Below are positions 11,717-33,783 of a stretch of 38,868 nt of DNA, one piece after another. Position 1 is the stretch's first letter; each line of letters begins with the position of its first letter. The position numbers and the translations under genes are program-made. Under the pieces are notes generated by a model. It did not search any database. It was not told the DNA's origin and saw only the letters and a list, made by a program, of their open reading frames with translations. Origin of the DNA: a virus; IMG/VR virus record IMGVR_UViG_3300028829_004553, positions 1 to 38,868 of that record, one strand, 5' to 3'.

Positions 11717-11746
11717 TATGGGAGCCTCGGAAAAGACTCCCATATT
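11715..11746. terminator. Hairpin terminator between convergent genes
   Basis: AATATGGGAG (11715-11724) pairs perfectly with CTCCCATATT (11737-11746) around a 12-base loop, and is followed by further Ts to 11748. It begins within the stop codon of the GH6 gene and lies 19 bases from the end of the minus-strand gene. It therefore probably ends transcription from both sides. Confidence 0.75.
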
Positions 11747-11765
11747 TTAGGTATCCGATATAGTA

Positions 11766-11987: not shown

Positions 11988-12024
11988 ATGGTTACTCTCC
12001 CGTTAGTTAATCAATTATGTCAGA

Positions 12025-12105
12025 TTTTTCACCGACATATAATAACTATTGTATATATTTTAGAAAATTTTCCGATATATAAATATATACAACACTTTTT
12101 TAGAA
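12025..12105 (+). repeat. Degenerate tandem repeat in the divergent promoter region
   Basis: Two imperfect units of about 40 bases lie side by side (12025-12065 and 12067-12105). Each starts with TTTTC, continues CGA(C/T)ATATAA(T/A) and ends TTTTAGAAA. The second contains the exact late box. The pair fills the gap between the minus-strand holin-like gene and the virion operon and looks like duplicated promoter or activator-binding sequence. It was found by eye and has several mismatches. Confidence 0.5.
12078..12085 (+). promoter_or_regulatory. T4-type late promoter box (TATAAATA)
   Basis: An exact match to the T4 late consensus TATAAATA, 58 bases before the first virion-operon ATG (12144). 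No -35 element is expected for this class. A gp55-like sigma factor that reads such boxes is encoded at 10182-10904. This is the only exact forward copy I noticed in an intergenic region. Confidence 0.65.
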
Positions 12106-12143
12106 ATCTTCTATTTATTATTAGGTAAAAAACAGGCAAAATT

Positions 12144-12521
12144 ATGGCAATCGATTTCGAAATATTTGAGGGTAAAACCCTGTCAGATGTGTTCAAAGAC
12201 ATCTATGATAACTCTAAACGAAACAAAGAACAATTAGAAGTTCTAATGAAAGAAGTAGTTCAGTTTATCAAGGATGGCGATACGGCCGTACAAATCATTC
12301 CTATGTTGAAAGAGTACTTAGAAATCAATGTAAAGAATGATGAGCAATTAGTTAAACTAGCAACCATCGTACAACGATTAGCACAAGCAAGTGCAAGTAG
12401 TGATAGTGATAGTGAGTTTGGTTTATCTGAGAAAGAAAAAGAACAATTAATGCAAAACATTGAAAATACAGTCAATGAGTTACAAGACCATAGCGATAAT
12501 ATTACAGCAAAAGTAAACTAA
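12144..12521 (+). CDS. Conserved small phage protein at the head of the virion operon
   Basis: 125 residues, almost wholly helical and acidic. Predicted helices cover FKDIYDNSKRNKEQLEVLMKEVVQFI, the AVQIIPMLKEYLEINVKNDEQLVKLATIVQRLAQ region, and EKEKEQLMQNIENTVNELQDH. A Ser/Asp-rich linker (about 92-98) separates the last helix. The overall form (small helical protein just upstream of the spike gene) resembles an uncharacterised protein of marine T4-like phages. A chaperone or assembly role is possible but not shown. It stops one base before the next ATG. Confidence 0.75.
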   Translation: MAIDFEIFEGKTLSDVFKDIYDNSKRNKEQLEVLMKEVVQFIKDGDTAVQIIPMLKEYLEINVKNDEQLVKLATIVQRLAQASASSDSDSEFGLSEKEKEQLMQNIENTVNELQDHSDNITAKVN

Positions 12522-12522
12522 T

Positions 12523-13653: not shown

Positions 13654-14105
13654 TGAGTTGGGATATATTTAGAGCTGAGTACAAACAAGGTTTAAGTAAT
13701 AATGATGATATGGCAAAAGTAATTGCTGAATCATATGATAAATGTGTAAAGACTGGAGTGAGTGGAGTAGGAACTGCACCACCCGCACCATTAGCAGCAG
13801 GAAATGTAGCAGGGTTACAATCAATGTTAAAATTATGTTTTAGTGCATACGGAGCAGTACCATTATCAACATCATTAGATACAGGTCTAAAACTTTATTG
13901 GTTGGGTGGTGCTACTGCTGCAGGAGCATTGGTAACTAATCCAGGAATAACATCATCATACATTGATGCACAAGGTAAGATGAATGAAACGATTGATGAT
14001 ACAATTGACCAGTTTATAACAGCGTTTAATATTTATCATCAACAGATTGTTTTTACAATCACAGCAGTCCCACCTTTGGTATCGGTAGGATATAATATAG
14101 TATAG
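13653..14105 (+). CDS. Putative structural protein (150 aa)
   Basis: Starts at a TAATG junction with the spike gene. 150 residues, helical at the N terminus (DIFRAEYKQGLSNNDDMAKVIAESYDKCV), with an Ala/Gly-rich centre (about 40-100) and a C-terminal helix ending in a hydrophobic strand. Position between spike and wedge genes suggests a baseplate or tail-tube-associated part. Family not recognised. Confidence 0.7.
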   Translation: MSWDIFRAEYKQGLSNNDDMAKVIAESYDKCVKTGVSGVGTAPPAPLAAGNVAGLQSMLKLCFSAYGAVPLSTSLDTGLKLYWLGGATAAGALVTNPGITSSYIDAQGKMNETIDDTIDQFITAFNIYHQQIVFTITAVPPLVSVGYNIV

Positions 14106-14114
14106 GAGGTCATT

Positions 14115-14597
14115 ATGACTAAAAAAGCACTCGTAAAATTAATTCGAGAAGTAGTAAGAATAGAGGTCAAAAAACAAGCTAAAGAGATATTTATTACTGA
14201 GTATAAGAAAGCAAAAAGTTCTACACTCAAATCTCTAGCACCAAAACAAAAACCAGTCAAAAAAGTTGTTCGACAAAAAAGAGATTTTGTATCTGGTAAT
14301 GATGCATTAAACGATGTTTTAAACGAGACTGTTGCATTGAGTAAAGGTGATTCAGAAATGGATGAATATCCAACGATGGGTGGTGGAAGTTTTGATTCGA
14401 GTAGAGCATCAGAACTATTAGGATACGGAGATGCATTATCAGCAGGTGGTGATAAAGAACAACAAAGAAACATGATAGCTGCACAAACCTTAAAAGAAAA
14501 GAATTTAAATGTGGGTGATGTACCTGAAAGTGTATTAAATGCTTTAACAAGAGATTATAGTGATTTAATGAAACACGATAAATTTAAAAAGAAGTAA
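14115..14597 (+). CDS. Hypothetical protein in baseplate operon (160 aa)
   Basis: 160 residues with a basic helical N terminus (KKALVKLIREVVRIEVKKQAKEIF), a Lys-rich linker, a Gly/Ser-rich middle (around MGGGSFDSSRASELLGYGDA) and a Lys-rich end (MKHDKFKKK). AGGAGG lies at 14105-14110, before the ATG. It looks largely disordered, like assembly factors or scaffolding-type proteins. Function unknown; it lies between structural genes. Confidence 0.7.
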   Translation: MTKKALVKLIREVVRIEVKKQAKEIFITEYKKAKSSTLKSLAPKQKPVKKVVRQKRDFVSGNDALNDVLNETVALSKGDSEMDEYPTMGGGSFDSSRASELLGYGDALSAGGDKEQQRNMIAAQTLKEKNLNVGDVPESVLNALTRDYSDLMKHDKFKKK

Positions 14598-14603
14598 TAA
14601 ACC

Positions 14604-15053
14604 ATGAGTGAAAAAGTATCAACATTAACAAATCCACCAGTACGAGTTATCAATGAAGATAGCGATGCGTTCTTTGGATTAACTTTTCCACTCACATATA
14701 AAAGTGGTAACGCTGGATTCTTTCCAAGAAGTTCTACAATAAGAGAACAAGTTTCCACAAACATAAAAAATTTATTACTAACTATTCCAGGTGAAAGAGT
14801 TAACCAACCAACATTTGGTTGTGAATTAACTTCACTAATTTTTGAACCACAAGAAGATGGTTTGGAAGATAGAATAGAAGCAGCAATTGAAGAGGCGTTG
14901 GCACAATGGTTACCTTATGTATCAATCAACACTATAGATATTATCTTAACACCAGATAGTAATCAAGTGTTAGTAAACTTAGAATTTTTAGTGAATGTGG
15001 ATGATGAGGATGCACCTGAACAGATATCCTTTAATTTCAATACCACAGGTTAG
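14604..15053 (+). CDS. Baseplate wedge subunit (gp25-like)
   Basis: 149 residues of the GPW/gp25 family, the small wedge protein at the base of contractile injection systems. Family landmarks are FFGLTFPLTY near the start, REQVSTNIKNLLLTIPGERV, the conserved PTFGCELTSLIFEP turn (about 69-82), and ending strands VLVNLEFLVNV. Length is normal. It is followed at once by the gp6-like gene, as in many contractile phages. It nucleates the wedge and contacts gp6 and the sheath initiator region. Confidence 0.92.
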   Translation: MSEKVSTLTNPPVRVINEDSDAFFGLTFPLTYKSGNAGFFPRSSTIREQVSTNIKNLLLTIPGERVNQPTFGCELTSLIFEPQEDGLEDRIEAAIEEALAQWLPYVSINTIDIILTPDSNQVLVNLEFLVNVDDEDAPEQISFNFNTTG

Positions 15054-18213: not shown

Positions 18214-18999
18214 ATGCCTTACATTTTTAATCAAACGGCAAAAAAGAAAAGCCCATACTATGCTAAAGTAATAGAAGCAGATAAAGCAAAACAATTAAAG
18301 GCTGCCGAAGAAGCAAAAAAACGAATGGAGATAAGTGGTTCTATCGTTGATGCCACTAATCCTATAAGAGATGAAAATGGTTTTCTACTATCTTACGAAT
18401 CGCCAGATAAACAAGGACAATCCATTGAAGAGGATTATCAATTAGTAAGATTACAAGTAAGACAAAACTCTGGTACAACAGATAGAGTTATTAAGTTCTT
18501 TGGTGATGATATACAATTTTTAGAAATCTTCCCAAGAGAAAATGAAGAAGAAGAAAATGGTGTAGATATAGATGCACTACAAGCAGAATTGGATGGAGAG
18601 ATAGAACGAAATCAAGTACTAAATAATAGTTTAACTGATGCCATCAATGGTTTGAATAAAAAAATTGCTGAGATGAATAACACAACATCCACAGACCAAG
18701 AAAAGAAAGAAGTTAAAAAGAAAAAGAAAAAGAAAAAGAAAAAGGGTGGAAGATTAAAAAGAGCAGCAAAAAAATTAAAGAAAATATTTAGTGATGAAAG
18801 ATTAAAAAGAGATATCGTACCACTTGGTATAGAGAATGGATTCAACACATATGAATTCAGATACATATGGGGTACACAAAAATATAAAGGTGTTATGGCA
18901 CAAGAAGTTATGAAAACTAATCCACAGGCAGTTGATAGTATATTTGGAGTATACATGGTGGATTACGATGAAATCGGAGTGGAGTTCGGTAAATGTTAG
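18214..18999 (+). CDS. Tail protein with C-terminal S74 intramolecular chaperone and poly-Lys tract
   Basis: 261 residues. The last 70 are a Peptidase_S74 (endosialidase-type) self-cleaving chaperone: SDERLKRDIVPLG (193-205), TYEFRYIWG, YKGVMAQEVMKTNPQAV (224-240), MVDYDEIGVEFGK. Cleavage is expected at Ser193. Before it lie a predicted coiled coil (about 118-156), ten consecutive Lys (168-177), then GGRLKRAAKKLKKIF, an amphipathic cationic helix that would become the C terminus of the mature product. S74 chaperones trimerise fibres and spikes. This protein is short for a fibre, so it may be an adaptor. Its end overlaps the next gene by seven bases. Confidence 0.83.
   Translation: MPYIFNQTAKKKSPYYAKVIEADKAKQLKAAEEAKKRMEISGSIVDATNPIRDENGFLLSYESPDKQGQSIEEDYQLVRLQVRQNSGTTDRVIKFFGDDIQFLEIFPRENEEEENGVDIDALQAELDGEIERNQVLNNSLTDAINGLNKKIAEMNNTTSTDQEKKEVKKKKKKKKKKGGRLKRAAKKLKKIFSDERLKRDIVPLGIENGFNTYEFRYIWGTQKYKGVMAQEVMKTNPQAVDSIFGVYMVDYDEIGVEFGKC
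18715..18744 (+). repeat. (AAAAAG)5 hexanucleotide tract
   Basis: Five perfect AAAAAG units encode the ten-Lys run of the S74 protein. Such a tract is prone to replication or ribosome slippage, but the downstream S74 domain is in frame as read. Confidence 0.9.
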
Positions 19000-21900
19000 A
19001 GTATGGTTTAACGGATAAAGATAGAGAAGAATTAGAATCACCAAGACCCGTATATAGTGGATTTGGTAGAGATAATTCTGATTACTTACATTTGTATGTT
19101 TATGATATGGAAGACAAATATGTCGATGATGATATATTTCCTGCAGGTGAAGTAAAGTTTCCAACACCAAACTTAGTTGATTTAGATGTAGGTACACATC
19201 TTCGTTCAATGGGATTAGAAATTGGTGAGTATAAAGTAAAATATCTTTTCTTAAGAAGATTGGCTGGAAAACAAGAAGATGTTTTAATTAACGAAGATAG
19301 TTTTATTCATATTGGTAAAGCACAAGTAAAAACTGTCAATGGTCGTACTCGTTATTTCACATCTGGTAAACAAAAACTTTCAGAGGGTAAATCTACAGAG
19401 TTATTACCTAAAAAATTACAATACAGAATCAAACAAATCTCACCTAATAAAAGAGAGATAAAAGTTGATTTACAAAGTATAAATAATGTTCCTTACCAAA
19501 AAGATTTTACATCTATCAACAAAGATATGGTGTACACGCCAAAAAAGAATAGAGCAAATGCTGGTAAAATAAAGTTTGATAAAACAGACCCATATGTATT
19601 ACAATTCGTTACAGGTAGAAACGAAAGAGGATTTACTGATAACATGGTTGGTGGAGAAATTGTTATACCTGGTATGTACACTTACACAATCACAAGAGAA
19701 AAAATTGTAGAAAAAATAGTTGAGGATGATGTAGGCCCTAAGAGAAGATTAGATTCAGAAATAGTTAGAAAGGTTGCACGAAAAGCAATCAAAGGTGCAA
19801 CACAAGGTAAACCTACACCAGTCATAGAACAGATAGCAGAAGTACCTGCACCAGATGATAGTTATCAAGATTTAGATAGGTTTGATGATTATGGTAGTGT
19901 TTGTTTTGTAGGTGATACACAAATAAAATTAAGTAACAATCGTACCTTACCAATCAAGATGATGAGACCTGGTATGAAAGTGAAAACTGAACAAGGTTTT
20001 GCAAAAGTATTAAAGGTAGTAAAAGATAACAGACCTTATGGTGATAAGTTAGTTAGGATTGGTAAACTAATCACAACAGACCATCACCCGATTAAACATC
20101 GTGGTAAGTGGTATATGGCAAATGAAGTTGGTACAGAATTTAAATCATCACCATTAGATGTTTGGAATTTAATATTAGATAAACACCACACTATATATGC
20201 TGATAATGTAGTTAGTGCTACACTTGGTAAATGGAGAAGTATGGAACACTTCTTACATCAGAGAAACCATCGTATCAATATGTTAAGATTAGCAGAAGAT
20301 TTTGAAGATGGACAAGGTGGTGGTGGTGATAGTGGAACTGGTGGTGGAGCAGCAACTTCAACACCAAGTACAATCGCACCAACAAATGAATGGGTAATAA
20401 ATGAACAAGTTCCAGCTGTAACAAGAGAAATAGTTGATGAGATAGTAAGGGTTCAAATACAAGATGGTATCACAGATATTGTACCTGAATTAGATGAAGA
20501 AGATACTGCACAAGAACCAGAAGTAATTTTTGAAAATACACCAATTGATTTTGTTGCTACTATTGTAGAGATACTTGATAACAATAGAGTTCGTGTAGAT
20601 AAATCATATGAAATGGGTGCTACAGAATCAGAACATAGTGGTGATGATGTAAGTGGTAACTTCTTTGATGAATTTTATGTTAACTACAGAAAGAACAAAG
20701 TTTCAAGATTAAATAACTACATGGTTACTGAACATGGATATCACTTAGCAATTAGTGTTTTAGATAGTCCAAAAGATGTATTACAAACAGACCCAGGTGT
20801 TGTACCATTGGATGCGTTTTCTGATAAAACTGCTCGTTACTTTAAATTTTATAAACCATTACCTGAAGAATTAGAAGTGGGTGATTTGGCTTATTTTGTT
20901 GAAGAGAAAATGGAACCATATGAAGATAAAATAAAACTAATACCATTTGTTGAAGAAGATGATGAGTATTTATTTCTTAGAGTTCCTAACTTAAACTCTA
21001 CTTCAAATCCAATAAACTTTAGAGGTACAAATTATAAAAAATATGATGACCTATTAAGTAGTGATAGTTCAACCAATGAAGAGATTATAAACTCAGTTCA
21101 CTCAAGTAGTTTACTTGATGTACAATTAAATATTGATTACCAAAAACGAACTGAAAAATTATCTGCAGATGGTGAAACAACCGATTATGGATTTGGTAAC
21201 TTTGTTAACTTTAGTTCGGCAGAAACAAGATTAAGAAATTTTAGAAAGAAAGTAGAATTAGTAGAGAAGTATACTTCATCTTCATTATCAATATCAAATG
21301 TTACAGGTTCTGGTGAGACACAAGCAGATTTTGATTTGAAGAAAAGACAAGTGATAAACTCATTTGGTCCATATGAAAACTTTTTATATACAGTCTCATC
21401 AAGTTATGCATCAAGTTCACTTGGTGAGTTCTATGATGCTAGTTGGCCAAAAGAAAGTTCTACTGAACCACACACACTTTATCATACATCAAGTTCTCAA
21501 GTTACCGCATGGTGGAATACTTGGATTGGTTACTCAAGAGAATATGATAGAGCAAACATGGATAGGTTAACAAATCAATTACCTGCTCATGTAAATCAAG
21601 ATACACAAAACGAAGTGTTCTTAGATTTTATGGATATGGTGGGTGAACAATTTGATGAGATATGGAGTTACTTAAGACACTTCACAGATGTAAATGAAAG
21701 AGTACCTAAAGTATCAGAGGGTATCTCAAAGGATATTGTAAAAGAAATTGCAAAGAATATGGGTTTTGAAGTTAATAGTGGAAATGATTTAGTTATTCTA
21801 CCAACATACTTGTTAGGAAAAGATTCAAGTGGTGCAGCATTAAATGAAACACCAAGTGAAGCATTAACAGAAGAAATATGGAAAAGAATTTTATCTAACT

Positions 21901-23882
21901 TACCTTTCTTTATGAAGAACAAAGGTACTGTCCGTGCTATGAAAGGATTGATGAATTGTTATGGTATACCAAGTTCATTACTAAGAGTTAGAGAATATGG
22001 TGGACCAGATTTAAATGATAGAGTAAGTTATGAAATAAAAAGGAAGTTTACATACGCATTAGATTTTAGGTCAAGTCAGTATTTACTAACGCCATGGACA
22101 AACGATAGTGTTAGTAATATAAAACCACAAACAATTGAATTTAGATTTAGAAGTCCTAAATCACAAAATCAAGTTATTGTTGAATCAGAAAATAATTGGG
22201 CAATAGAATTACTTGATAACGGAGCAACTGATAATCTTGGTAGAGTTCAGTTTAGTATTAGTGGAAGTAGTGGAAATACATTTGTAACTTCTTCTTTACT
22301 ACCTGTATACAATGATGATATGTTTAGTGTGATGTTAACAAGAAAATCATCAAGTGGTGCAGATTTAACATCGGATGATGTTTCACAAGAAGTAACATAT
22401 GAGTTAACTGCAAGACAATATGATGCATCAAGAGAAGTAATTGTATACTCTAACTCATCAAGTTTATCTACAACATCAAATGATATTAATGGTGCATTTA
22501 CTCAAAGTGCTAACTTGTGGGTTGGTGGACATAATGATAAATTCCACAAGACAAGACTTAGTGGTTCTTTGATGGAGTTCAGATTATGGAGTGAACCTTT
22601 ATCACAAAGTGTATTTGAGAATCATGTAATGGCACCAAAAGCATACAATGGTAACACAACATCTTCCATGTATGATAACTTAATATTCAGATTACCATTG
22701 GGTGAGAATAGTAATTTAGGTAGTGGAACAAACTATCAGTTAGATGATAAATCATATCAAACTAATTACTTTGCAAGTGCGAGTGCGGTTGGATATAGTG
22801 AGAATTTATTTAGAAGTATATCCGATAAAGAACAAATGAAAGTTCCAAATATTGGACCAGCAAGAAGAAACGCAACAAAGATTAGAACAGAGAACACGAA
22901 ACTACTTGGTAATCTTTCTTCTAATATTAGACAAGAAGTTTCTGCACAAAGTTTTGCACCAATAGATAGTAATAAACTTGGTGTGTTCTTTTCACCAGTT
23001 GATGTGGTGAACGAAGATATTATGTATTCATTAGCAGATATAAATCTTGATAATGAAATCGGAGACCCAAGAGACCAATACAGAATAGGATATCGTGGGT
23101 TAGATAAAGTACAAAGAGATTATTGGAAAAAGTATTCTCGTAGTAATAACTTTTGGGATTACATGAGAATTATAAACTTCTTTGATAGAAGTATATTTGA
23201 CCAATTATTAAAATTAGCTCCAGCAAGAGCAAATACAACATTAGGTTTATTAATAGAACCTAATCTTTTAGAAAGAAGTAAAGAAGTAGTAGGTAAGATA
23301 CCTGAGTTTGATAATGTATATTATGAGAACGCAGGACATTTTGATAATGGTATACAATTAACAAGTAGATTAAGTAGTTCCGCGGAACCTATACCATATC
23401 GTTTTTTTGGTGAGTACACAACATATAATGGAGATGTAAATTTACACAATCTCGAAAGTGGTTCACTTGGAACATTAGGAATACCTACACTAAATAAAAT
23501 TAATCAAATAGACCCAAGAAGTGATTATGGGAATTTATATGCAACAGCAAGTATAACAGAGGGAGATATAGAACCTACATTTGAAGAGGCGTTCAATCCT
23601 TTTGTTAGTGCATCACGAATATCAGAACACAATGAAATAAAAGAATTCTTTTATTCAAGTGAGGCAAGTGCATCAAGAGGTGAATCATATAGTTCATCAT
23701 TTGCACCAGCAGAATTTCAAAGTGTAGCATATGAATCTAAACTATTTAGATTATTTTACAAACAAGAATTATTAACGAAAAATAATACTATTGATGGTAA
23801 GGAACCTGTTGAAATAACAATAACTTCACCTACAAAACTTGTAACTCAAGAACCAGGCGATTCCAAGTTAAAAGTTGATTAA
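18993..23882 (+). CDS. Giant tail protein with embedded Hint domain and LamG-like domain
   Basis: 1629 residues, the largest gene here. About 1-250 is a beta-rich tail domain. Residues 303-412 form a Hint (hedgehog/intein) domain, described in the findings. A Gly-rich linker (440-453) follows. The second half contains SYLRHFTDVNERV, LPFFMKNKGTVRAMKGLMNCYGIP and RVREYGG (typical of large marine-phage tail proteins with a P2 gpI-like part). It then has a concanavalin/LamG-like domain (YALDFRSSQYLLTPW, IEFRFRSP, LWVGGHNDKFHKTRLSGSLMEFRLWSEPL). The C terminus is Ser-rich. It probably forms the wedge-to-fibre connector or a host-binding part. It follows the S74 gene with overlap. Confidence 0.82.
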   Translation: MLEYGLTDKDREELESPRPVYSGFGRDNSDYLHLYVYDMEDKYVDDDIFPAGEVKFPTPNLVDLDVGTHLRSMGLEIGEYKVKYLFLRRLAGKQEDVLINEDSFIHIGKAQVKTVNGRTRYFTSGKQKLSEGKSTELLPKKLQYRIKQISPNKREIKVDLQSINNVPYQKDFTSINKDMVYTPKKNRANAGKIKFDKTDPYVLQFVTGRNERGFTDNMVGGEIVIPGMYTYTITREKIVEKIVEDDVGPKRRLDSEIVRKVARKAIKGATQGKPTPVIEQIAEVPAPDDSYQDLDRFDDYGSVCFVGDTQIKLSNNRTLPIKMMRPGMKVKTEQGFAKVLKVVKDNRPYGDKLVRIGKLITTDHHPIKHRGKWYMANEVGTEFKSSPLDVWNLILDKHHTIYADNVVSATLGKWRSMEHFLHQRNHRINMLRLAEDFEDGQGGGGDSGTGGGAATSTPSTIAPTNEWVINEQVPAVTREIVDEIVRVQIQDGITDIVPELDEEDTAQEPEVIFENTPIDFVATIVEILDNNRVRVDKSYEMGATESEHSGDDVSGNFFDEFYVNYRKNKVSRLNNYMVTEHGYHLAISVLDSPKDVLQTDPGVVPLDAFSDKTARYFKFYKPLPEELEVGDLAYFVEEKMEPYEDKIKLIPFVEEDDEYLFLRVPNLNSTSNPINFRGTNYKKYDDLLSSDSSTNEEIINSVHSSSLLDVQLNIDYQKRTEKLSADGETTDYGFGNFVNFSSAETRLRNFRKKVELVEKYTSSSLSISNVTGSGETQADFDLKKRQVINSFGPYENFLYTVSSSYASSSLGEFYDASWPKESSTEPHTLYHTSSSQVTAWWNTWIGYSREYDRANMDRLTNQLPAHVNQDTQNEVFLDFMDMVGEQFDEIWSYLRHFTDVNERVPKVSEGISKDIVKEIAKNMGFEVNSGNDLVILPTYLLGKDSSGAALNETPSEALTEEIWKRILSNLPFFMKNKGTVRAMKGLMNCYGIPSSLLRVREYGGPDLNDRVSYEIKRKFTYALDFRSSQYLLTPWTNDSVSNIKPQTIEFRFRSPKSQNQVIVESENNWAIELLDNGATDNLGRVQFSISGSSGNTFVTSSLLPVYNDDMFSVMLTRKSSSGADLTSDDVSQEVTYELTARQYDASREVIVYSNSSSLSTTSNDINGAFTQSANLWVGGHNDKFHKTRLSGSLMEFRLWSEPLSQSVFENHVMAPKAYNGNTTSSMYDNLIFRLPLGENSNLGSGTNYQLDDKSYQTNYFASASAVGYSENLFRSISDKEQMKVPNIGPARRNATKIRTENTKLLGNLSSNIRQEVSAQSFAPIDSNKLGVFFSPVDVVNEDIMYSLADINLDNEIGDPRDQYRIGYRGLDKVQRDYWKKYSRSNNFWDYMRIINFFDRSIFDQLLKLAPARANTTLGLLIEPNLLERSKEVVGKIPEFDNVYYENAGHFDNGIQLTSRLSSSAEPIPYRFFGEYTTYNGDVNLHNLESGSLGTLGIPTLNKINQIDPRSDYGNLYATASITEGDIEPTFEEAFNPFVSASRISEHNEIKEFFYSSEASASRGESYSSSFAPAEFQSVAYESKLFRLFYKQELLTKNNTIDGKEPVEITITSPTKLVTQEPGDSKLKVD

Positions 23883-24723: not shown

Positions 24724-25731
24724 ATGTCAGTATTTACAAGATTCGATAGACAAAACGATGTAGTTGAAAACCAAAAGGTAAAAGTATCAAGTGGTATTTT
24801 TAGTGGTGGGACAGGAACATTAACTTCGTTCTTTACAAGTTCTACACAAACCGCAACAGGTTCTTATTTGGATATCTTTCATCAAGACCCTGCATCAAGT
24901 CCATCAACAGCAGAAATACAATTTGATATTGGATATGCTCATTTTGGTGGAAGTGGTTCGGCAGGAAACACAACAAAGTTAACAACGGGTGGTAGAGAAA
25001 GTGCAGCAAATTATAGACAATTTGCAAATGTATTACTTCCACCATCTACTGAGAAATTTACTTTCACAAGTGCTCCAAGTGCATCAGAAGAATTTTACTT
25101 CGTAGCATTTAACAGAGCAAGAATGAGAGAAAAGATTGACCCAGGTAATTGGGAACTCAGATTAGGTAGCCATAAATTCATTGATGATAGTGGAGCAACA
25201 AATAATCCAACAGTCAATGAGGGTGGTAGAGTATTTAACATTGTTAGTGGTTCATTAGAAACTGGTGTTGGAGTTGTTAACACAGCAGCAGCAAGTCAAG
25301 CAGGTGGTGCGATTGGTTCCTTTTATCCTGATTTAGGAATCTTATTATTTAATCCAACCTACTTAGATGAGACTGTAGCATTTGGTACTGGTAGAAATGC
25401 CGATGCGTTTGCTAACAATCCAAGAAAGTTTTATAACAAAATTGTAGCAGCTAACTATTTCCAAGTTCGTAGAGAAGAGGAGATTAGTTCTACTAACTTC
25501 TTCTGTAGGGTACTAAACAAAGATTATAACTTTAGTGCAAACCCAACATTCTTTACAGGCTCAGATGGTGCTCTAACAAACTCAACATTCTTCAAAGACC
25601 CTAAAGTGTTTATTACACAAGTAGGTTTATACAATGATGAGAATGAGTTGTTAGCAGTTGCTAAGTTAAGTAAACCTATTTTGAAATCATATTCAAGGGA
25701 AGCTATAATAAAAGTTAAACTTGACTTCTAA
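24724..25731 (+). CDS. Virion structural protein, paralogue A (335 aa)
   Basis: 335 residues, beta-rich, Ser/Thr/Gly-rich, no signal peptide. The C terminus (FITQVGLYNDENELLAVAKL, SKPI, then KVKLDF) matches that of the next gene (VTTVGLYNDNNELLVIGKL, AKPI, VVRFDV). The two also have the same length, so they probably arose by duplication with strong divergence of the rest. A central YFVAFNRARMREKIDPGNWEL block is distinctive. Likely tail or baseplate-fibre component; GGAG precedes the ATG. Confidence 0.75.
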   Translation: MSVFTRFDRQNDVVENQKVKVSSGIFSGGTGTLTSFFTSSTQTATGSYLDIFHQDPASSPSTAEIQFDIGYAHFGGSGSAGNTTKLTTGGRESAANYRQFANVLLPPSTEKFTFTSAPSASEEFYFVAFNRARMREKIDPGNWELRLGSHKFIDDSGATNNPTVNEGGRVFNIVSGSLETGVGVVNTAAASQAGGAIGSFYPDLGILLFNPTYLDETVAFGTGRNADAFANNPRKFYNKIVAANYFQVRREEEISSTNFFCRVLNKDYNFSANPTFFTGSDGALTNSTFFKDPKVFITQVGLYNDENELLAVAKLSKPILKSYSREAIIKVKLDF

Positions 25732-25743
25732 GGGAATTTATAA

Positions 25744-26751
25744 ATGTTAAAAAACATTGACCCATCAGATAAGTCAATAAGACCATTCAAAGTTCATAAG
25801 AAATGGTTCTTAAATCAAAACGATAGTGGAAGTGGATTCTTACGCCTAAACGCTGAGAGTGGTTCACTATTTAATTTCAATACTGGAAGTGCTGCCTCAC
25901 AATCATTCGGTCGGTTTCATGGTAGTTCTTCCAAGTTTGAATATGGTACATATTATGATAGACCAAATTGGTTTAGTATAAAACATTTGTACTATGAAAA
26001 TCTTGAACCATACAGAACATTCGGTGGAAATAATTACCAAGTAGAAAAAAGAGAACTACATGGTAATGCAAAAATATTTACTATACCACAAGAACTATTT
26101 GGTGAAGAATTAAAACCAGGTAGTATTAATTTAGATGTAACGAATGGTGGAAAGACTTATCAATTAAGAGATGATGGTGATGGTAACATTTATGATTTTG
26201 CTCATTCAGCAAGTTACGCAGCTTATAAATCAAGTTCATTTGATAGAACACAAGGAATCATAGCAAACGGAAGTGGTTCACAAGTGGGTAATGCTTTTTA
26301 CTCACATGGATTAGTTGTACTTACAGATACAGGTTCATTACTAAATGCAGGTGATACTACATTTGATTTGAACTTTCAAGCAACACAAACAATTTACGAA
26401 TACGAATACTTGGTTACAATCGAACCAGGTGAATTTAACTTAATCACAAATAAATCTGCAACTGAAAATTTAAGTGGCAGTATAAATGTAGCAGAGGGTT
26501 CAACGGACATACACAAGTTCTTCGCACCTTCAGACCAACCAACAGGTGCAGGGACAGGAAGCTACAAAACATCTTACACACAAGCAAGTGGATATCAAGG
26601 GTTTGTATCACATTCAGATTTCAAACCATATGTAACGACAGTCGGTTTATACAATGATAACAATGAATTATTAGTTATTGGTAAATTGGCAAAACCTATC
26701 AAATTAGGTAACGATATCAATACTTCGATTGTTGTAAGATTTGATGTATAA
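25744..26751 (+). CDS. Virion structural protein, paralogue B (335 aa)
   Basis: 335 residues, the last gene of the virion operon. It shares the C-terminal strand-turn-strand pattern GLYND-NELL-KL-KPI with the preceding protein. The N-terminal two thirds are unlike it, with KKWFLNQNDSGSGFLRLN, NWFSIKHLYYEN and EKRELHGNAKIFTIPQELFGEELKPGSI. The GELKPGSI-type pattern occurs in other phage tail-surface proteins that share a C-terminal attachment domain. It may be an alternative tip protein on the same attachment point. No clear hairpin terminator follows. Confidence 0.75.
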   Translation: MLKNIDPSDKSIRPFKVHKKWFLNQNDSGSGFLRLNAESGSLFNFNTGSAASQSFGRFHGSSSKFEYGTYYDRPNWFSIKHLYYENLEPYRTFGGNNYQVEKRELHGNAKIFTIPQELFGEELKPGSINLDVTNGGKTYQLRDDGDGNIYDFAHSASYAAYKSSSFDRTQGIIANGSGSQVGNAFYSHGLVVLTDTGSLLNAGDTTFDLNFQATQTIYEYEYLVTIEPGEFNLITNKSATENLSGSINVAEGSTDIHKFFAPSDQPTGAGTGSYKTSYTQASGYQGFVSHSDFKPYVTTVGLYNDNNELLVIGKLAKPIKLGNDINTSIVVRFDV

Positions 26752-26862: not shown

Positions 26863-29514
26863 ATGAGATGGTTGATAATAGGCCTAATGTGGTTGGGTTT
26901 TGTCTTCCCACAAGAACCCGTCATTAGGATTATGCAAACTGGCACTTATGATACACCAGAGTATTGGTGGAGAGAAAGTGTTACGCATCAATTACAAACT
27001 TACTTAGCAGATGATAAAGATAATCCTGCTTTGTATAATAATAATTTTGATGCTTGGAGAGATAGTGTAATGACTATGGAAGTTACACTTGATGATGATG
27101 GTGCTGATGTTACTGCACTAAGATTAGATATTATTTTTGATAACGATATAATTGATTGGGATGATGAAGATACTGAAGTATTAAAAGGTTCATGGTTAAC
27201 TCAAGCAACTGAGGGTGATTCTACCGCAGGAGCTGATTATTCATATGAAGTTGTTCACTATTCCGATGTTGGATATATCGATTCTTTACAAACTGCTGAT
27301 AGTGAAAAATCAGAAGCTAATGCAAGATACGATTGGTTAAGAATTACAATGGTATCACACAATGGTGATGAATTTACTTTTGGTGGTGGAGAGGGTGTTC
27401 AAAAACAATTAGTAAAATTAAATTTTAAAATAGAAGATGTTGTGGATGATTTCAGTCCGCGTTCTTTTAGAGTACCAACATTATATGAGGGTGGTGAGGG
27501 ATACTACACTTATATAAGTGATGATTACTTATTAGATTACGATGTTTACATTGATGGTAATTATGGTACGGAAGAAACAGACCAAGGTGGTGCAAGAGGA
27601 GATATTTCTCTACATCCAAAACTTGTTGATGTTGAGGGATACTTTAGGTATGCACAAGATAATGCAATAACTAATGATAACACTTATCCTTATTGGAAGA
27701 TTAGATTTGAATTAGACCAAAGTAATCCAGATGAATACAATAGTTGGTACAACATTGAAGATATTGATAATGAAGCAAACTTAACTGATGAAACAACAAC
27801 CGATGATGTCATTGGTGATGATACATCTACATTTTGGTTTGATGATAAAGGAACTACTGCAGCACAAACGCTACCAGGTGAGGGTTTCTTAGGAGTAAGT
27901 TATTTTGATTCTACATACACAGATGATAGAGGATATTATAATATTCAGTTACCACGAAACCAAAAATATCGTATGTCATTTTATCCACCAGATGCTAGTG
28001 ATGATATTGAATCACATACACCATTAACATTGGATAGATATGGAATTACAAACATCAACGATGCTATTGCAGCATTTAATTTCCAAAGTAATAAGTTTAA
28101 ATCTGTTACAGGTGTAGATACACTAAACGCAGTTGAATACTTTATTGGTGATGTGGATGGAGATGATGTATTCCAATTAAATGATGCATATTTCTTATGG
28201 GCATACACAAGTGGTATCATTGATACATATGTTCACTTAAATGGTGATACACTACAGAGTTGGGCAACTATCGATACACTAAAAGAGGGTGGTGAACCAT
28301 TTCCTTATGGATACTATGAAGATTGGGGTAATCAAAGATATGAGTTTACTATATTCAAAGATGATGATTTTGACCAAGATACTACATTACAATTTGGACA
28401 GATTGAAGTTATCAATCCATTGATGGATGATATTCAGACTGGTTTAGATACCTTAGATATTGGTTTTGCTGGTGGTTCATCTACATATGGAAATGATGTT
28501 AATCCAGATTACACAATTGATAGTTTAGCATACTTCTTTACAGGAGATGTAAACGCAAGTGGTACTAAAGTAAAAGAAGCAGGTTCAACATCAGATGGTG
28601 ATGATTTCGATATTGAAGATGTAGGAAGTACTGATGGATACATTGATATAAATGGCGATACATATTATCGTTGGGGTAATGGTAACCCACCAAGTACTTG
28701 GGCAAACAAAATTGCATTTAATACACCTGATGTGTTTATGACATTACCTGCAGATTCCACAGTCAGAGTTCGTAGTGGTGATATTATTGAAGTACCATTC
28801 ACTCTAACACCAGAACAAGTAAATGTTGCTGGATTTGAGTTTGAAGTAGAATTTAATTCTAATGAATTAGAGTTTGTTGATATGAAGACTGGAAACTTAC
28901 CAGGGCCGTGGTTCACTTATGTGAATGTACACGAACCAATACAAGGTAAACAGAAAGTATCATTTGGTGGTATGGATTATTCACCAGGTAACGCACCACA
29001 AACTTATTGGATAGATAGTCAGATAAATGCTCTAACATTATTATTCAGAGCAGATTTTCCTGATGCAGAGTGGACAGAAGCACCTGTAAACTTCGTTGAT
29101 AAATATGCTGCTGGTAATCCAAGTGGTCAAGATTTATTAGTGAGTAGACAGAGTGGTAAAGTGATGGTATGGAATAAATATTGGGCATTCGGTGGTGGAG
29201 AACCAGAAGAGAATGAGCTAACTTATAACTATCCAAATCCATTTAGAGAAAATACAAGATTCCAATTTTATGTTGAAGAGTTGTCAGATGTAAAACTTTA
29301 CATACTAAACTCTAATGGACAATATGTTGGAACATTGTTAGATGAGAGTGTAGAACCAGGTATACACACATTTGATTTTTCAAATGAACCAAGTGTTTGG
29401 TTACCTGAAGTTAGTGTTTATCAAGAACACCAAACTTTAGAACCAGGTGTTTATATATTTGTTTTACAGAGTGGAAATAAAATTAAGGCCAATAAATTTA
29501 CGGTCGTTAAATAA
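26863..29514 (+). CDS. Secreted T9SS cargo protein with cohesin- and dockerin-like parts
   Basis: 883 residues. The N-terminal signal peptide MRWLIIGLMWLGFVFPQ probably cleaves near residue 16. Residues 68-192 and 622-768 look like cohesin-type beta-sandwiches (ALRLDIIFDNDIIDW; VAGFEFEVEFNSNELEFVDM, ALTLLFRADF). Residues 397-451 contain dockerin-like helices and a calcium loop, GDVDGDDVFQLNDAYF. The C terminus (about 785-883) is a T9SS type A sorting domain: NYPNPF (789-794), VKLYILNSNGQYVGTLLD, EPGVYIFVLQSG, KFTVVK. In FCB bacteria such a tail sends proteins through the outer membrane and anchors them on the surface. The next gene encodes a PorV/Q-like protein. Role in the phage cycle unknown. 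Confidence 0.85.
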   Translation: MRWLIIGLMWLGFVFPQEPVIRIMQTGTYDTPEYWWRESVTHQLQTYLADDKDNPALYNNNFDAWRDSVMTMEVTLDDDGADVTALRLDIIFDNDIIDWDDEDTEVLKGSWLTQATEGDSTAGADYSYEVVHYSDVGYIDSLQTADSEKSEANARYDWLRITMVSHNGDEFTFGGGEGVQKQLVKLNFKIEDVVDDFSPRSFRVPTLYEGGEGYYTYISDDYLLDYDVYIDGNYGTEETDQGGARGDISLHPKLVDVEGYFRYAQDNAITNDNTYPYWKIRFELDQSNPDEYNSWYNIEDIDNEANLTDETTTDDVIGDDTSTFWFDDKGTTAAQTLPGEGFLGVSYFDSTYTDDRGYYNIQLPRNQKYRMSFYPPDASDDIESHTPLTLDRYGITNINDAIAAFNFQSNKFKSVTGVDTLNAVEYFIGDVDGDDVFQLNDAYFLWAYTSGIIDTYVHLNGDTLQSWATIDTLKEGGEPFPYGYYEDWGNQRYEFTIFKDDDFDQDTTLQFGQIEVINPLMDDIQTGLDTLDIGFAGGSSTYGNDVNPDYTIDSLAYFFTGDVNASGTKVKEAGSTSDGDDFDIEDVGSTDGYIDINGDTYYRWGNGNPPSTWANKIAFNTPDVFMTLPADSTVRVRSGDIIEVPFTLTPEQVNVAGFEFEVEFNSNELEFVDMKTGNLPGPWFTYVNVHEPIQGKQKVSFGGMDYSPGNAPQTYWIDSQINALTLLFRADFPDAEWTEAPVNFVDKYAAGNPSGQDLLVSRQSGKVMVWNKYWAFGGGEPEENELTYNYPNPFRENTRFQFYVEELSDVKLYILNSNGQYVGTLLDESVEPGIHTFDFSNEPSVWLPEVSVYQEHQTLEPGVYIFVLQSGNKIKANKFTVVK

Positions 29515-29525
29515 GAGGATAGATA

Positions 29526-30392
29526 ATGAAAAAAGTAATATTAGGTTTGTTGTTTGTAACTTCTCTATTTGGACAGGTTAATCGTGTATTAACGATATCA
29601 CCATCTGCAGAAGAAACAACATTGGGAAACCAATCACTTGCGTTTAGAAATCCCGCAAAAAACCATTTCAATCTTGATACTACAACCAATGTAAGTTTTA
29701 CAAATGTACAATGGTTAAAGAATATCGTAGATGATATGGGATATAACTATATTGATGTAAGATGGAAGAGTTTTGGCTTTAACCTTTTACACTTTGATTA
29801 CGGAGAACAGAAATCGACTGATTTATATGGAACAGTCAATGGTTCGTTTGCACCAACAACCACCAAACTCGGAGTGAGTTGGGGTACACCTTTATATTAT
29901 AAGGGTAATAAGTTGGATAGTGTATCAATAGGTGTAGAGGGTAAAGTAGTCTTTCACGATTTATATACAGAAAAAACTGATGGTATGTTATTCGATGTTG
30001 GTATTCACATGGATGATTTTTGGAAAAAATTAGATATGGATATTATGATTGCTAATGTCGGTATAATGACTAAGATGAATGGATATGAAATTGAGATTCC
30101 AACAAGTTTGAATGTAGGTGTAAAAATACCTATTAATAATTGGGATATTTATAATCAATGGAATATTTATAGTGGATACTATACTATGGGACAAGGTTTA
30201 TCATATAACTTAAAAGATATGTTTTGGTTCAGAGCAGGATATTATAGTGATGTAGACCATCAGTTGAATTATCCATCAATAGGTATGGGATTCGAGTATG
30301 ATAAATACAATGTTGGATTAGGATTTATATCAGGTGATGATACACATCCATTGAAAGATTCAATGTTACTAACTATTAATGTGGAGATATAG
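29526..30392 (+). CDS. PorV/PorQ-like outer-membrane protein (T9SS-associated family)
   Basis: 288 residues. Signal peptide MKKVILGLLFVTSLFGQ, then the family opening SAEETTLGNQSLAFRNPAKN (compare 'LG...ALxNPA'), NVSFTNVQWLKNIVDDMGYNYIDVRW and a run of alternating strands to a terminal barrel strand (LLTINVEI). PorV/PorQ-family barrels carry T9SS cargo to the surface-attachment complex. The match is by pattern, so another FadL-like barrel cannot be excluded. It lies 11 bases after the cargo gene with its own ribosome site, so the two are co-transcribed. Confidence 0.65.
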   Translation: MKKVILGLLFVTSLFGQVNRVLTISPSAEETTLGNQSLAFRNPAKNHFNLDTTTNVSFTNVQWLKNIVDDMGYNYIDVRWKSFGFNLLHFDYGEQKSTDLYGTVNGSFAPTTTKLGVSWGTPLYYKGNKLDSVSIGVEGKVVFHDLYTEKTDGMLFDVGIHMDDFWKKLDMDIMIANVGIMTKMNGYEIEIPTSLNVGVKIPINNWDIYNQWNIYSGYYTMGQGLSYNLKDMFWFRAGYYSDVDHQLNYPSIGMGFEYDKYNVGLGFISGDDTHPLKDSMLLTINVEI

Positions 30393-30468: not shown

Positions 30469-30849
30469 ATGGCAAAGGATATAGAACAAGCTATTGAAGA
30501 AGTCAAAGGAAAAAAGTTCGGAGTATCAATTAACAATATTATTGCTATTGTTACTTTTCTTTCTACCGCAATTGCTGGGTGGTATAGTTTTACTGGCCGC
30601 ATTGATTCATTGGAAGAAGTAGTACAAGGATTTGCAGAAGCAAGTGATATAGAAATTGTAACCAATAACTTTGAAAATATTGATGAAGAATTAAAATATC
30701 TACGAGAAAAAGTAGATGGATTAAAAACGCCAAAAGTAAAATCATATGATGGAGATATAATTAAACTACAGAATGAGATTGATAAATTAAATGGTGAGAT
30801 TGAACGATTGGAAAAACTACTGAAAGACCCGTTATCGGATTTCAGATAA
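30469..30849 (+). CDS. Membrane-anchored coiled-coil protein (126 aa)
   Basis: A charged N-terminal helix (1-17), one membrane helix (about 22-42, NNIIAIVTFLSTAIAGWYSF), then a long acidic coiled coil (about 45-122) broken by a KTPKVKSYDG linker. This could be a single-pass inner-membrane or spanin-like protein. AAGGAG (30456-30461) precedes the ATG. It lies inside the envelope module, between the Cys-rich peptide and the CsgG-like lipoprotein. Confidence 0.7.
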   Translation: MAKDIEQAIEEVKGKKFGVSINNIIAIVTFLSTAIAGWYSFTGRIDSLEEVVQGFAEASDIEIVTNNFENIDEELKYLREKVDGLKTPKVKSYDGDIIKLQNEIDKLNGEIERLEKLLKDPLSDFR

Positions 30850-30862: not shown

Positions 30863-31504
30863 ATGAATAAGATATTCTCAATATTGTTTTTAATAGGTTT
30901 ATACGGATGTGCAGCATCAGTATCAACGGAACAATATGTTGGTGAGTATGAGAAACAGAAATCATTAGATGAAATTGAAATAACTAAAGTTGATAATCTA
31001 AAGATTTTGGATGTTAAATTTAATAAAGAACTTGAAGAACAATATCCAGAACTTGGAAATAAACGAGTTGCATTTGGGTTAAACCAAGAACTTGCAAATG
31101 TTATTTCTTACATTGGAAGATTTAATCTTGTTGAGGGAGATAGAGATGTACAATTATCTATCATCAACGATTTAAAAGCCAACGAAGCAAAAATAGAGAA
31201 AACCAAGTACACTGCGTATGTAACTATTTATGATTTTGCTGTTAACTTACAAGAAGATATCAAGAGTGGGAAAGTTCAAACAATAAACGAAACTATTGTT
31301 GGTATTCAAGTTAAAGTAATCAATAATGAAAATACTCAGTATGTGGTTGGTAGTGGTCAAGGAAGAGCTTCCACAATAGGTCAAGGATTCCTAAAAAATC
31401 CAAATATGGAATGGAATCAGAGTTCTTTAAGTTCCGCCTCAAATAAGGCAATGGAAACTGCGGTTGTAAATGTAATTAAAGCAATAGACCGTAGAGGTTG
31501 GTAG
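30863..31504 (+). CDS. CsgG-like outer-membrane lipoprotein
   Basis: 213 residues. Signal and lipobox MNKIFSILFLIGLYGCAAS put the lipidated Cys at about 16. The rest follows the CsgG/curli-assembly fold: NKRVAFGLNQELANVISYIGRFNLVEGD (N-terminal helix/strand), TAYVTIYDFAVNL, ETIVGIQVKVINNENTQYVVGSGQGRAS, and final helix SNKAMETAVVNVIKAI. CsgG family members form outer-membrane secretion pores or regulate peptidoglycan enzymes (LpoB). Homology is by pattern. AGGAG precedes the ATG; it is in the same operon as the PorV/Q-like and second CsgG-like genes. Confidence 0.65.
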   Translation: MNKIFSILFLIGLYGCAASVSTEQYVGEYEKQKSLDEIEITKVDNLKILDVKFNKELEEQYPELGNKRVAFGLNQELANVISYIGRFNLVEGDRDVQLSIINDLKANEAKIEKTKYTAYVTIYDFAVNLQEDIKSGKVQTINETIVGIQVKVINNENTQYVVGSGQGRASTIGQGFLKNPNMEWNQSSLSSASNKAMETAVVNVIKAIDRRGW

Positions 31505-31509: not shown

Positions 31510-32496
31510 ATGTGGCAGAGAGTATTAATAGTTATAGGATTATTCTGTAGTTTACTCTCTGCACAAGGTTTTTTTTATAATTATGTTGACCCTTGTAATC
31601 AGACGATTGTAAGAAATAACTATAGGGTACAACAAGATGGAAATGGATTCTATGTTTCCTACTATAATAAATCAAGATTTTTTACATTAGAAGAAGTTCT
31701 TGCAGGAGAACTTGAATTATGGGCAGAGAATGTATACAATGATTTCGAAGATTTATTTCCTTGTGCAGTAAGAGTTGCTGAAGAGATTTTGGCGAGTGCA
31801 CTTGCACAAAATGCTACAGAACAATTTAGTAAAGGTGATATAAGTAACCAACCATCACAAGTAAATTATGCTATAAAAAGTTCACCAAGTGTGGATAGTA
31901 GTTGGGTTACCACATTTAATAGTGTGTACACAAGAACATCATTTGATGGTAAGAGTAGGTACGATGGTAATTTCTCATTCACCGATGACTTCACACGATT
32001 TAGTGGTACTTACGGACAAGGTATTAACTTTATTTCGAAGAAGCAGAATCAAGTGATAAGTGGTACGGGTGTAGCATTTGAAACATTTGAGGGGTGGGAT
32101 TGGTTAGTATCTACCTCTTATGCAAAATCTCTGATTAAACCACAATCAGAAGTTATTGTACTAACCACAAGTTTTGGAAGTGTAAGTGATAATACATTTG
32201 GAAACCTTTCAGTATTACATGGTATGGTGATTCCAATTGATTTAAAGATGATTAAGTTTACATTTGCAAACTATACATCTTACACATTACTTAGATATTA
32301 TGGTGGATTAAATCGAGATTCTCAATATTTATTACTGAGAAGTCCAATTATGTTCTTTCCAACTATTTCCGCAGACTGGAAATTAGGACAGGCATTCACC
32401 TTTAATGTAGGTGTGAGTTTTGGATTTAACACGGTCGTGAATGACTATGGTGAAAGAGGAAAATCTTTCAGTATACTATTTGGGACTTACTTTTAA
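31510..32496 (+). CDS. Outer-membrane beta-barrel-like protein (328 aa)
   Basis: 328 residues with signal peptide MWQRVLIVIGLFCSLLSAQ. About 20-110 is a helical plug-like region (LEEVLAGELELWAENVYNDFEDLF), then many alternating strands (DGNFSFTDDFTRFSG, GWDWLVSTSYAKSL, EVIVLTTSFGSV, TFNVGVSFGF) to a terminal FSILFGTYF with aromatic last residue, as in barrel proteins recognised by the BAM machinery. The ATG is at 31510, five bases after the lipoprotein stop. Function unknown; it may be a pore or exclusion protein on the host surface. Confidence 0.68.
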   Translation: MWQRVLIVIGLFCSLLSAQGFFYNYVDPCNQTIVRNNYRVQQDGNGFYVSYYNKSRFFTLEEVLAGELELWAENVYNDFEDLFPCAVRVAEEILASALAQNATEQFSKGDISNQPSQVNYAIKSSPSVDSSWVTTFNSVYTRTSFDGKSRYDGNFSFTDDFTRFSGTYGQGINFISKKQNQVISGTGVAFETFEGWDWLVSTSYAKSLIKPQSEVIVLTTSFGSVSDNTFGNLSVLHGMVIPIDLKMIKFTFANYTSYTLLRYYGGLNRDSQYLLLRSPIMFFPTISADWKLGQAFTFNVGVSFGFNTVVNDYGERGKSFSILFGTYF

Positions 32497-32506
32497 GGAG
32501 AAGAAA

Positions 32507-33025
32507 ATGAAAAAACTGATTATGATATTGTTAATGATGGGATTTGGTTTTTCACAAGATTTACCAAAGCCAGTTGTTGTTGGTGAAGACCTCGATTGGC
32601 CTACATTGAAAGTATCACAATTCGTAAAAACCGATGAATCAATTGGTGTTGCTGATAGTAGAGTTACTATGGGTATTAAACAATTAGTTGAGGAATCATT
32701 TCAAAATACAAGGTATCGTTTAGTTGAAGATGATAATGCAGATTTTACTGCTAATGTAGAAGTACTTTATATTGGTAAACCAAATGAAGCATTTAGTATT
32801 ATTGGATTATTTAACAGAAGAAATCAAAAAACACAAGTTAATCTTCATGTTAATTTAGTCAATAATCTTGAGGGAACACAAAAAATATTTCGTGGGACTG
32901 GTGAGATAGAAACTAATGTAACTGCTACTGGATTACAAATCGAGGAAGAAGCAGACTTTGGAAATACTGAGTTGGGTGGTGCAATTAGAAAAGCCATCAA
33001 TGATGCTGTAAATAGTGTTGAATAG
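32507..33025 (+). CDS. Periplasmic CsgG-like protein
   Basis: 172 residues. Signal peptide MKKLIMILLMMGFGFSQ, no lipobox Cys. The body shows the CsgG/LpoB pattern: KQLVEESFQNTRYRLVEDDNADFTANVEVLYIG, TQVNLHVNLVNNLEGTQKIFRGTGEIETN, and terminal helix GGAIRKAINDAVNSV. The ATG at 32507 is chosen over the upstream ATG at 32441 because AAGGAG (32495-32500) and a proper signal peptide follow it, and it starts after the preceding stop. With the lipoprotein at 30863 it makes two CsgG-like genes in the same module. Confidence 0.6.
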   Translation: MKKLIMILLMMGFGFSQDLPKPVVVGEDLDWPTLKVSQFVKTDESIGVADSRVTMGIKQLVEESFQNTRYRLVEDDNADFTANVEVLYIGKPNEAFSIIGLFNRRNQKTQVNLHVNLVNNLEGTQKIFRGTGEIETNVTATGLQIEEEADFGNTELGGAIRKAINDAVNSVE

Positions 33026-33033: not shown

Positions 33034-33783
33034 ATGCTATTAAAAGATTGGCCACAAAAAAGAAGAGAGTGGGTATTAGGTGGATTCCTAAACATTCTCT
33101 TCATTCTATGTATTGTGGGTATTCGTTATTATTACGCTCAAGAAGAAATGGATTTCTTGAGAGAAGATTCTGCTAGACAGGATAAGTTAATTGTTGAGTT
33201 AAATGATACAGTCAATACATTAACAAAACAGAATGAAAATTTATTACTTGATTTACATACACATGATAAAACTCGTGGTATTGAGAACTATTCGTTAAAG
33301 AAGAAGTTAGAGATATTAGAAACGGAAATTGATAGTATCAAGATACTTATTAATGAGTTACCTACACAGACCCAAGAGGTTAAAGTAGGTGATGCCAGTG
33401 GGGTAATACCATTCGAAAAAGAGTTCGGTGTACAAGGAAATTATTTAAGAATTTTCGGTAGGACTGGATATTTAATAAAGGATGGAATATTGACCGATAG
33501 TGAAACTGAACTCGGATTAGATGGAAGTTTACAAATGGGTTTACCTTACATAGAGCAAGGTGAAATAAAAGGTGAATATTATGCAGTTGTACCAGACACT
33601 TTATTTAATGGTGTGAGAATTAGTGGTAGACAAGGAAGTCCCCTAAAATTAAAACCACCGAGAAATCAGATAAGTGTTGGTCCTTTTGCTGGGATAATAT
33701 ATGATTCTAAGACAGGATTAACAGAACCAGTAATTGGATTTGGTGTATCGTATAATATGTTAAAAATATGGGATTGGAGATAA
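33034..33783 (+). CDS. Spanin-like membrane protein with C-terminal beta domain
   Basis: 249 residues. A basic N terminus, one membrane helix (about 14-35), coiled coil (about 36-110), then a beta-rich part ending NQISVGPFAGIIYD and EPVIGFGVSYNMLKIW. The closing pattern 'GP.....GIG.SYN' resembles the end of DUF6808-type proteins of Bacteroidetes phages, many of which are candidate spanins. It could bridge inner and outer membranes for final lysis. It ends the envelope module; AGGAG precedes the ATG. Confidence 0.65.
   Translation: MLLKDWPQKRREWVLGGFLNILFILCIVGIRYYYAQEEMDFLREDSARQDKLIVELNDTVNTLTKQNENLLLDLHTHDKTRGIENYSLKKKLEILETEIDSIKILINELPTQTQEVKVGDASGVIPFEKEFGVQGNYLRIFGRTGYLIKDGILTDSETELGLDGSLQMGLPYIEQGEIKGEYYAVVPDTLFNGVRISGRQGSPLKLKPPRNQISVGPFAGIIYDSKTGLTEPVIGFGVSYNMLKIWDWR

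Follow-up and report, generated by a model that had tools for sequence, protein, structure and literature searches.

A phage gene pair encoding a putative type IX secretion cargo and a PorV/PorQ-family barrel, set in a conserved envelope cassette

Why should a phage carry, side by side, a protein bearing a sorting domain of the type IX secretion system (T9SS) and an outer-membrane barrel of the PorV/PorQ family? The question is raised by the IMG/VR virus record IMGVR_UViG_3300028829_004553, a DNA of 38,868 bases analysed here over its whole length (the window), in which primase and myovirus baseplate genes are present. Two of its open reading frames (ORFs), on the same strand and 11 bases apart, encode the cargo and the barrel, and both lie where a first-pass annotation of the sequence had placed them (Table 1). 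That annotation had proposed that the virus borrows the surface-display machinery of its host; its observation is confirmed, and its interpretation is partly supported. The account that we rate slightly above an even chance is that of a phage cassette that would display a protein on the cell surface through the host T9SS, served by a dedicated PorV-like shuttle in one group of phages, called the marine clade below.

By both sequence and predicted fold, the barrel is a member of the PorV/PorQ family, as had been proposed, and no unrelated family emerged by sequence family, fold or profile search of the Protein Data Bank (PDB). The family model NF033709 gave 99.4 bits against a cut-off of 90. 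When a profile of 15 phage barrels was compared with PDB sequences, PorV (6h3i and six 8gl entries) was matched at 8.2e-7 and was the only match below 0.5, the sole other row standing at 0.55. The predicted structure (predicted local distance difference test, pLDDT, 75.9; predicted template-modelling score, pTM, 0.75) appears to be a FadL-type barrel of 14 transmembrane strands, by our own reading of the secondary-structure (DSSP) line with two short strands omitted. Its best fold match is 8gl6_F, which is PorV in the translocon bound to the C-terminal domain (CTD) of RemA (E 3.1e-11, TM-score by query 0.67; Z 24.5, root-mean-square deviation 4.3, 264 residues aligned), and among the matches listed from a viral fold library the best TM-score by query was 0.43. 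Common to the phage barrels and four bacterial PorV-type proteins are WL...D, a G-E/N-Q...D-x-x-G stretch, an NPA motif and a C-terminal PL..(T/S), and the extracellular loop WLKNIVDD is highly conserved among the phage barrels, with an entropy of 0.45 bits. One phage barrel (L017, 12900-13727) is without a 14-residue stretch held by the near-identical L022 (2211-3080), so that either the contig was misassembled or the copy is decaying.

In an unrooted tree of 43 rows, the barrel falls with PorV and away from PorQ. The phage barrels and the four PorV-type proteins were split from 21 other family members with support 97/91, and a grouping of the phage barrels with three PorQ-type proteins was rejected (approximately unbiased test, p-AU 0.0035). 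The tree labels were assigned partly after the tree was seen: two PorV-type rows score above the PorV cut-off (496 and 272) and two just below it (243.5 and 237.8), while one PorQ-type row was scored (250.8, cut-off 220) and two were labelled by eye. With the PorQ equivalog NF033711, the window barrel itself scored 45.6 bits, below that same cut-off. Like PorQ, which is part of the attachment complex, the barrel could be an anchor rather than a shuttle, with host PorV extracting the cargo and the phage barrel only holding it at the surface; we regard this as unlikely, though not negligible. The barrel is short, like PorQ and many PorV-family paralogues, and PorQ was matched by 15 of 15 phage barrels, with a best E of 1.9e-20 against 1.9e-17 for PorV. 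The tree and the PDB sequence search point instead to PorV, and both are compatible with an anchor role. A role in holding type B cargo has been ascribed to PorP/SprF-like barrels, and PorP-like proteins have been proposed as anchors (PMC9143113). The simplest account of the barrel is a dedicated shuttle or anchor.

The cargo carries at its C-terminus, over residues 790-881, a T9SS type A sorting domain, detected by TIGR04183 at 26.7 bits (cut-off 23). The same model was matched by all 15 aligned cargo homologues at E <= 0.1, and YNYPNPF, which includes the NYPNPF named in the first-pass annotation, is invariant across them. Cohesin- and dockerin-like parts had also been claimed, and the former is borne out by PF00963 (25.4 bits, cut-off 24.1), matched at E <= 1 in 14 of the 15 homologues. 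The latter found no support, since the Pfam dockerin matched neither the cargo nor the homologues searched; what is present is an EF-hand-like D-x-D-x-D...D stretch with invariant aspartates. The putative N-terminal signal peptide looks typical by eye in the alignment. The predicted cargo model is poor (mean pLDDT 41.5) and unusable as a whole.

The pair recurs in other viral contigs, where the first-pass annotation had advised looking for it. A cargo query found 27 viral loci, several of them near-copies; the barrel directly follows the cargo in 24, and the other three contigs (L018, L025 and L029) end inside or just past the cargo. Because the ratio of nonsynonymous to synonymous substitution rates (dN/dS) is low in the four pairs compared (barrel 0.14-0.21; cargo 0.15-0.21), and because adjacency is conserved, the observation goes beyond chance. 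Neither protein was matched in 50,697 GenBank phage records, and a genome scan with the whole cargo alignment found no relative. A generic bacterial sorting domain also matched none of the GenBank phages, in a search that is insensitive since Flavobacterium phage immuto (NC_055915.1) carries one, and a scan of viral contigs for bacterial PorV patterns found no relative with short exact patterns that missed known phage barrels too. A related baseplate gene marks 80 loci, from which 25 virus records were chosen: the cargo was present in nine and the barrel in four, the five cargo-only records ending inside the cargo. The other 16, mostly fragments but one of 77 kb, have neither gene, so the pair looks accessory within the phage group.

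The pair is part of a larger envelope cassette, which the first-pass annotation had missed. In the pair loci that reach far enough, it is followed in the same order by the genes named here by their first positions, 30469, 30863, 31510, 32441 and 33034. Immuto, which infects Flavobacterium, has that cassette without the barrel: its 160 kb hold no PorV-family gene and one sorting-domain gene only. The product of 30863 is homologous to immuto gp017 (27.6% identity, in four records), that of 31510 matches the N-terminus of gp018, and that of 32441 matches gp019. Immuto gp015 combines a cohesin with a sorting domain (TIGR04183, 44.8 bits) and matches the C-terminal part of the cargo (hhalign 95%, 2.5e-8), and gp013 has a C-type lectin domain (3e-15). 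Neither gp013 nor gp014 significantly matched the window cargo; gp014 and gp015 are fused into one protein of about 640 amino acids in other phages, suggesting that the two separate immuto proteins act jointly. The existing annotation of this immuto stretch (8782-14664) names only the lectin and cohesin domains among the lectin, cohesin/sorting-domain and window-cassette homologues found there. The baseplate protein of immuto is related to that of the window (38%), and its gene, at about 82 kb, lies far from the cassette at about 10.5-16.4 kb. This distance, together with the signal-like start of the cargo and the secretion signal at its end, makes it very improbable that the cargo is a virion (tail) protein, an idea prompted by its place directly after two 335-residue proteins (24724-26751) of a region called tail by position only. 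Identification of the 30863 and 32441 products as CsgG was discarded, with no match in Pfam, in the PDB profile search or to CsgG of HTVC008M; the 31510 product matched neither PDB sequences nor phage CsgF, and the barrel did not match the HTVC008M porin.

The comparison of cassettes with and without the barrel connects its presence to a change in the sorting domain. Scanning with the 30863 family gave 251 confirmed relatives, of which the best 80 were analysed; detection relied on the barrel profile and on our own sorting-domain profile, iterated on the same loci and therefore biased toward them. Of 29 loci in the marine clade (at least 76% identity to 30863), 28 have both cargo and barrel, and the remaining one (L219) is without upstream sequence. 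The 51 other loci (about 30% identity) yielded the cargo in 47 and the barrel in none, the remaining four again being without upstream sequence. A sorting-domain cargo is thus present in 75 of 75 loci with enough upstream sequence, and the barrel in every one of the 28 from the marine clade but in none of the other 47, with 20 and 34 distinct cargo C-termini, respectively. In an independent check of 36 of the 51 loci outside the marine clade with the curated models, TIGR04183 was above its cut-off in 34; the best scores of the 35 with a match ranged from 21.8 to 53.3 bits, with a median of 42.4 by our own count, and NF033709 matched in none of the 36. The sorting domains of nine barrel-bearing virus records scored 26.5-32.5. 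The PNP-to-GxY spacing is 70 in 28/28 barrel-paired sorting domains and 54-56 in 47/47 barrel-less ones, so that the former exceed the latter by about 15 residues. Across 14 phages, barrel distances correlated with those of the cohesin at 0.84, the sorting domain at 0.87 and the cargo body at 0.60, and the partial correlation of barrel and sorting domain given the cohesin was 0.56, in a permutation test that ignores relatedness. The constant sorting-domain neighbour and the linked domain change point to a cargo of the barrel's own, and they leave little room for a barrel that displaces host PorV in SprA and stops the export of host T9SS cargo, with the phage cargo incidental. A short PorV-like barrel could compete for the lateral opening of SprA, in which PorV is placed by PMC10994853. 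In two bacterial sequences (L060, 1-2331, and L070, 65-2049), a gene with a sorting-domain-like tail, judged by eye, stands directly before a PorV-family paralogue, as in the phages.

If the cassette is a display system with its own shuttle, the cargo would cross the inner membrane via Sec during infection and then enter the host SprA translocon. PMC10994853 also describes the extracellular loops of PorV as wrapping the sorting domain, with the type A domain held inside SprA. The phage barrel, replacing host PorV or acting beside it, would take the altered sorting domain out via the lateral gate and carry the cargo to the cell surface or hold it there. Other cassette proteins may form the envelope base of the cargo, and related cassettes lacking the barrel would depend on host PorV. 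The benefit, at a guess, could be a remodelled surface of the infected cell, for example with receptors masked or contacts added. The first-pass annotation had named a block to superinfection, an adhesin or an enzyme scaffold as conceivable purposes.

Several points weigh against the display reading. Binding of the cargo by the barrel and export of the cargo are predictions, and a T9SS in the marine-clade host is presumed. The sorting domain, "textbook" according to the first-pass annotation, is marginal in score and atypical, with PF18962 below its cut-off (17.3 against 27) and with the added length described above. The window barrel scores 52 bits with the PorV equivalog NF033710, far below its cut-off of 250. 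Scored with NF033709, only two of a further nine virus records pass the cut-off (91.1; 94.1 summed), the remaining seven lying at 66.7-75.3. A long region of bacterial PorV is absent from the phage barrels in the alignment with the four PorV-type proteins, and the tree has a long phage branch (1.39). Taken together, the extracellular loops are scarcely better conserved than the strands, with an entropy of 1.18 bits next to 1.22, and 1.79 for the periplasmic turns. The barrel and the longer sorting domain represent one clade-level event, not 75 independent ones, and a recombination break near residue 620 could give the same correlations as functional coupling. Finally, FadL chains are nearly equal to PorV as fold matches (Z 23.5 against 24.5). 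With FadL and TodX-type chains only slightly behind PorV as matches to the model, the barrel might be a generic FadL-type uptake porin or a receptor decoy unrelated to the cargo; this is improbable in view of the NF033709 score above cut-off, of PorV as the only PDB sequence match below 0.5 and of the fixed adjacency to the cargo.

The host bears on how a dedicated shuttle could have arisen. One marine-clade contig (L056) was binned with the Flavobacteriales metagenome-assembled genome (MAG) NAT55, which encodes a PorV of its own along with tens of sorting domains. Shine-Dalgarno-like sites precede 13 of 29 genes in the window and 54 of 113 in eight marine-clade loci, some of them near-copies, where 4% is expected by chance; the corresponding counts are 0/20 in immuto, 8/121 in barrel-less phages and 0/37 in NAT55. 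Bacteroidetes mRNAs are described as having no Shine-Dalgarno sites (PMC6847099, PMC9976891). NAT55 was set aside as host: its assignment is doubtful because the marine-clade phages use such sites and NAT55 does not, and this usage argues against a Flavobacteria host for the marine clade. Three genomes of another phylum have Shine-Dalgarno-like sites at 5/19, 5/12 and 5/11, and the barrel profile matched, at 1e-6, 81 of 82 genomes of that phylum against 103 of 198 in the phylum of NAT55. Marinimicrobia, a first candidate for the host, would have in its favour only a likeness of sorting domains. The Shine-Dalgarno contrast is a sign of a host switch between groups with a common cassette. Tentatively, the PorV-derived shuttle may be the phage's own subunit of the T9SS translocon, reading a private, lengthened type A domain. 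The cassette would have gained it in passing between Bacteroidia phages, in which Shine-Dalgarno sites and the barrel are absent, and phages infecting a different T9SS-bearing phylum that does use such sites, so that the cargo could be exported whatever the PorV of the new host prefers.

Relative to known systems, the pair shares its family, fold class and sorting-domain type with the PorV shuttle and type A cargo of Flavobacterium johnsoniae (PDB 8gl6, 6h3i). It differs from bacterial PorV in being phage-encoded, much shorter, below the PorV equivalog cut-off and matched to a single cargo with a lengthened sorting domain. According to PMC12618676, PorV serves all type A substrates, and type B substrates rely on a cognate barrel whose gene lies immediately downstream. 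SprB-SprF, a type B cargo with a PorP/SprF-like shuttle, resembles the phage pair in having its own shuttle barrel directly downstream (same source). In the phages the signal is of type A (TIGR04183) and the barrel PorV-type, a combination of type A signal and gene order resembling type B. The first-pass annotation knew of no phage system of this kind. Phage T9SS cargo had in fact been described: Cryophage carries such genes, through which, its authors suggest, the phage hijacks the host's system and excludes superinfection (PMC7468147), and others lie near crAss-BACON phage genes (PMC6949934). The accessible portions of those two papers mention sorting-domain genes as here, and neither a shuttle barrel nor a conserved cassette. 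A phage-encoded PorV was not found in a few literature searches in which subscription papers were mostly outside the scope, and a phage that supplies the shuttle of a host machine did not turn up in them. Immuto gp013-gp019 is alike in its homologous cassette and its cohesin and sorting-domain protein, and differs in having no PorV-family gene, a cargo split over genes and the C-type lectin protein. The csgGF genes of pelagimyophages and methylophage Melnitz (PMC9004378) likewise represent phage-encoded outer-membrane secretion parts, of type VIII (curli) rather than type IX, and no CsgG sequence link was found.

Faecal records offer a further likeness and a caution. PorV was matched in three unverified GenBank phage records of faecal origin, MT835954 and two that were examined. 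These two, L299 (MT836897.1) and L300 (MT836010.1), filed as faecal phage, carry bacterial genes (PorU-PorV-IspF-MnmA; SusD), are probably bacterial DNA and were set aside as examples of phage PorV. In the record with PorU and PorV, porU, whose product carries a sorting domain, stands directly before porV, in a layout like that of the phage pair.

Were the display reading true, the pair would offer a natural short shuttle and signal for work on T9SS specificity, and homologous phage cassettes with and without the barrel would form a natural comparison set. Because phage immuto and its host Flavobacterium sp. LMO8 are both in culture, a barrel-less cassette is already available for work on what the cassette does.

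Table 1. Features of the cargo, the barrel and the cassette in the window
Feature	Position	Strand	Evidence
Cargo, 883 amino acids: N-terminal signal-like segment, long middle, cohesin domain, T9SS type A sorting domain	26863-29514	+	ORF; TIGR04183 and PF00963; 27 viral loci
EF-hand-like, dockerin-like motif, residues 430-441, not a Pfam dockerin	28150-28185	+	D430, D432, D434 and D441 invariant in 15/15
Cohesin domain, Pfam-matched stretch, residues 634-679	28762-28899	+	PF00963 1.8e-5; a cohesin of known structure matched weakly (E 0.27)
T9SS type A sorting domain	29230-29505	+	TIGR04183 30 bits, above cut-off; 26.7 bits on the protein
Sorting-domain region with about 15 extra residues of barrel-paired cargoes (limits by eye)	29380-29439	+	PNP-to-GxY spacing
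PorV/PorQ-family outer-membrane barrel, 288 amino acids	29526-30392	+	NF033709 99.4 bits; PDB sequence match; fold
Cassette: small membrane protein with coiled coil	30469-30849	+	conserved position, 76-96% identity in relatives; topology by eye
Cassette: lipoprotein-like protein with a lipobox by eye, homologous to immuto gp017	30863-31504	+	tblastn 8e-23; hhalign 2e-21
Cassette: secreted protein, N-terminus resembling immuto gp018	31510-32496	+	hhalign 2.4e-6 over 75 columns
Cassette: secreted protein homologous to immuto gp019, with its actual start probably near 32507	32441-33025	+	hhalign 4.8e-11; near-invariant Met23
Cassette: membrane coiled-coil protein, C-terminal part conserved	33034-33783	+	conserved position; alignment

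Elsewhere in the window, a tail-region protein of 1,629 amino acids (18993-23882) has a domain of the Hint type (Vint; 5.8e-19) together with a weak laminin-G-like stretch. In another viral contig (L127, 527-1936), pilin-like proteins with GFTLIE N-termini are encoded just before phage structural genes and may be phage-borne pseudopilins, host flank or the product of a chimera.

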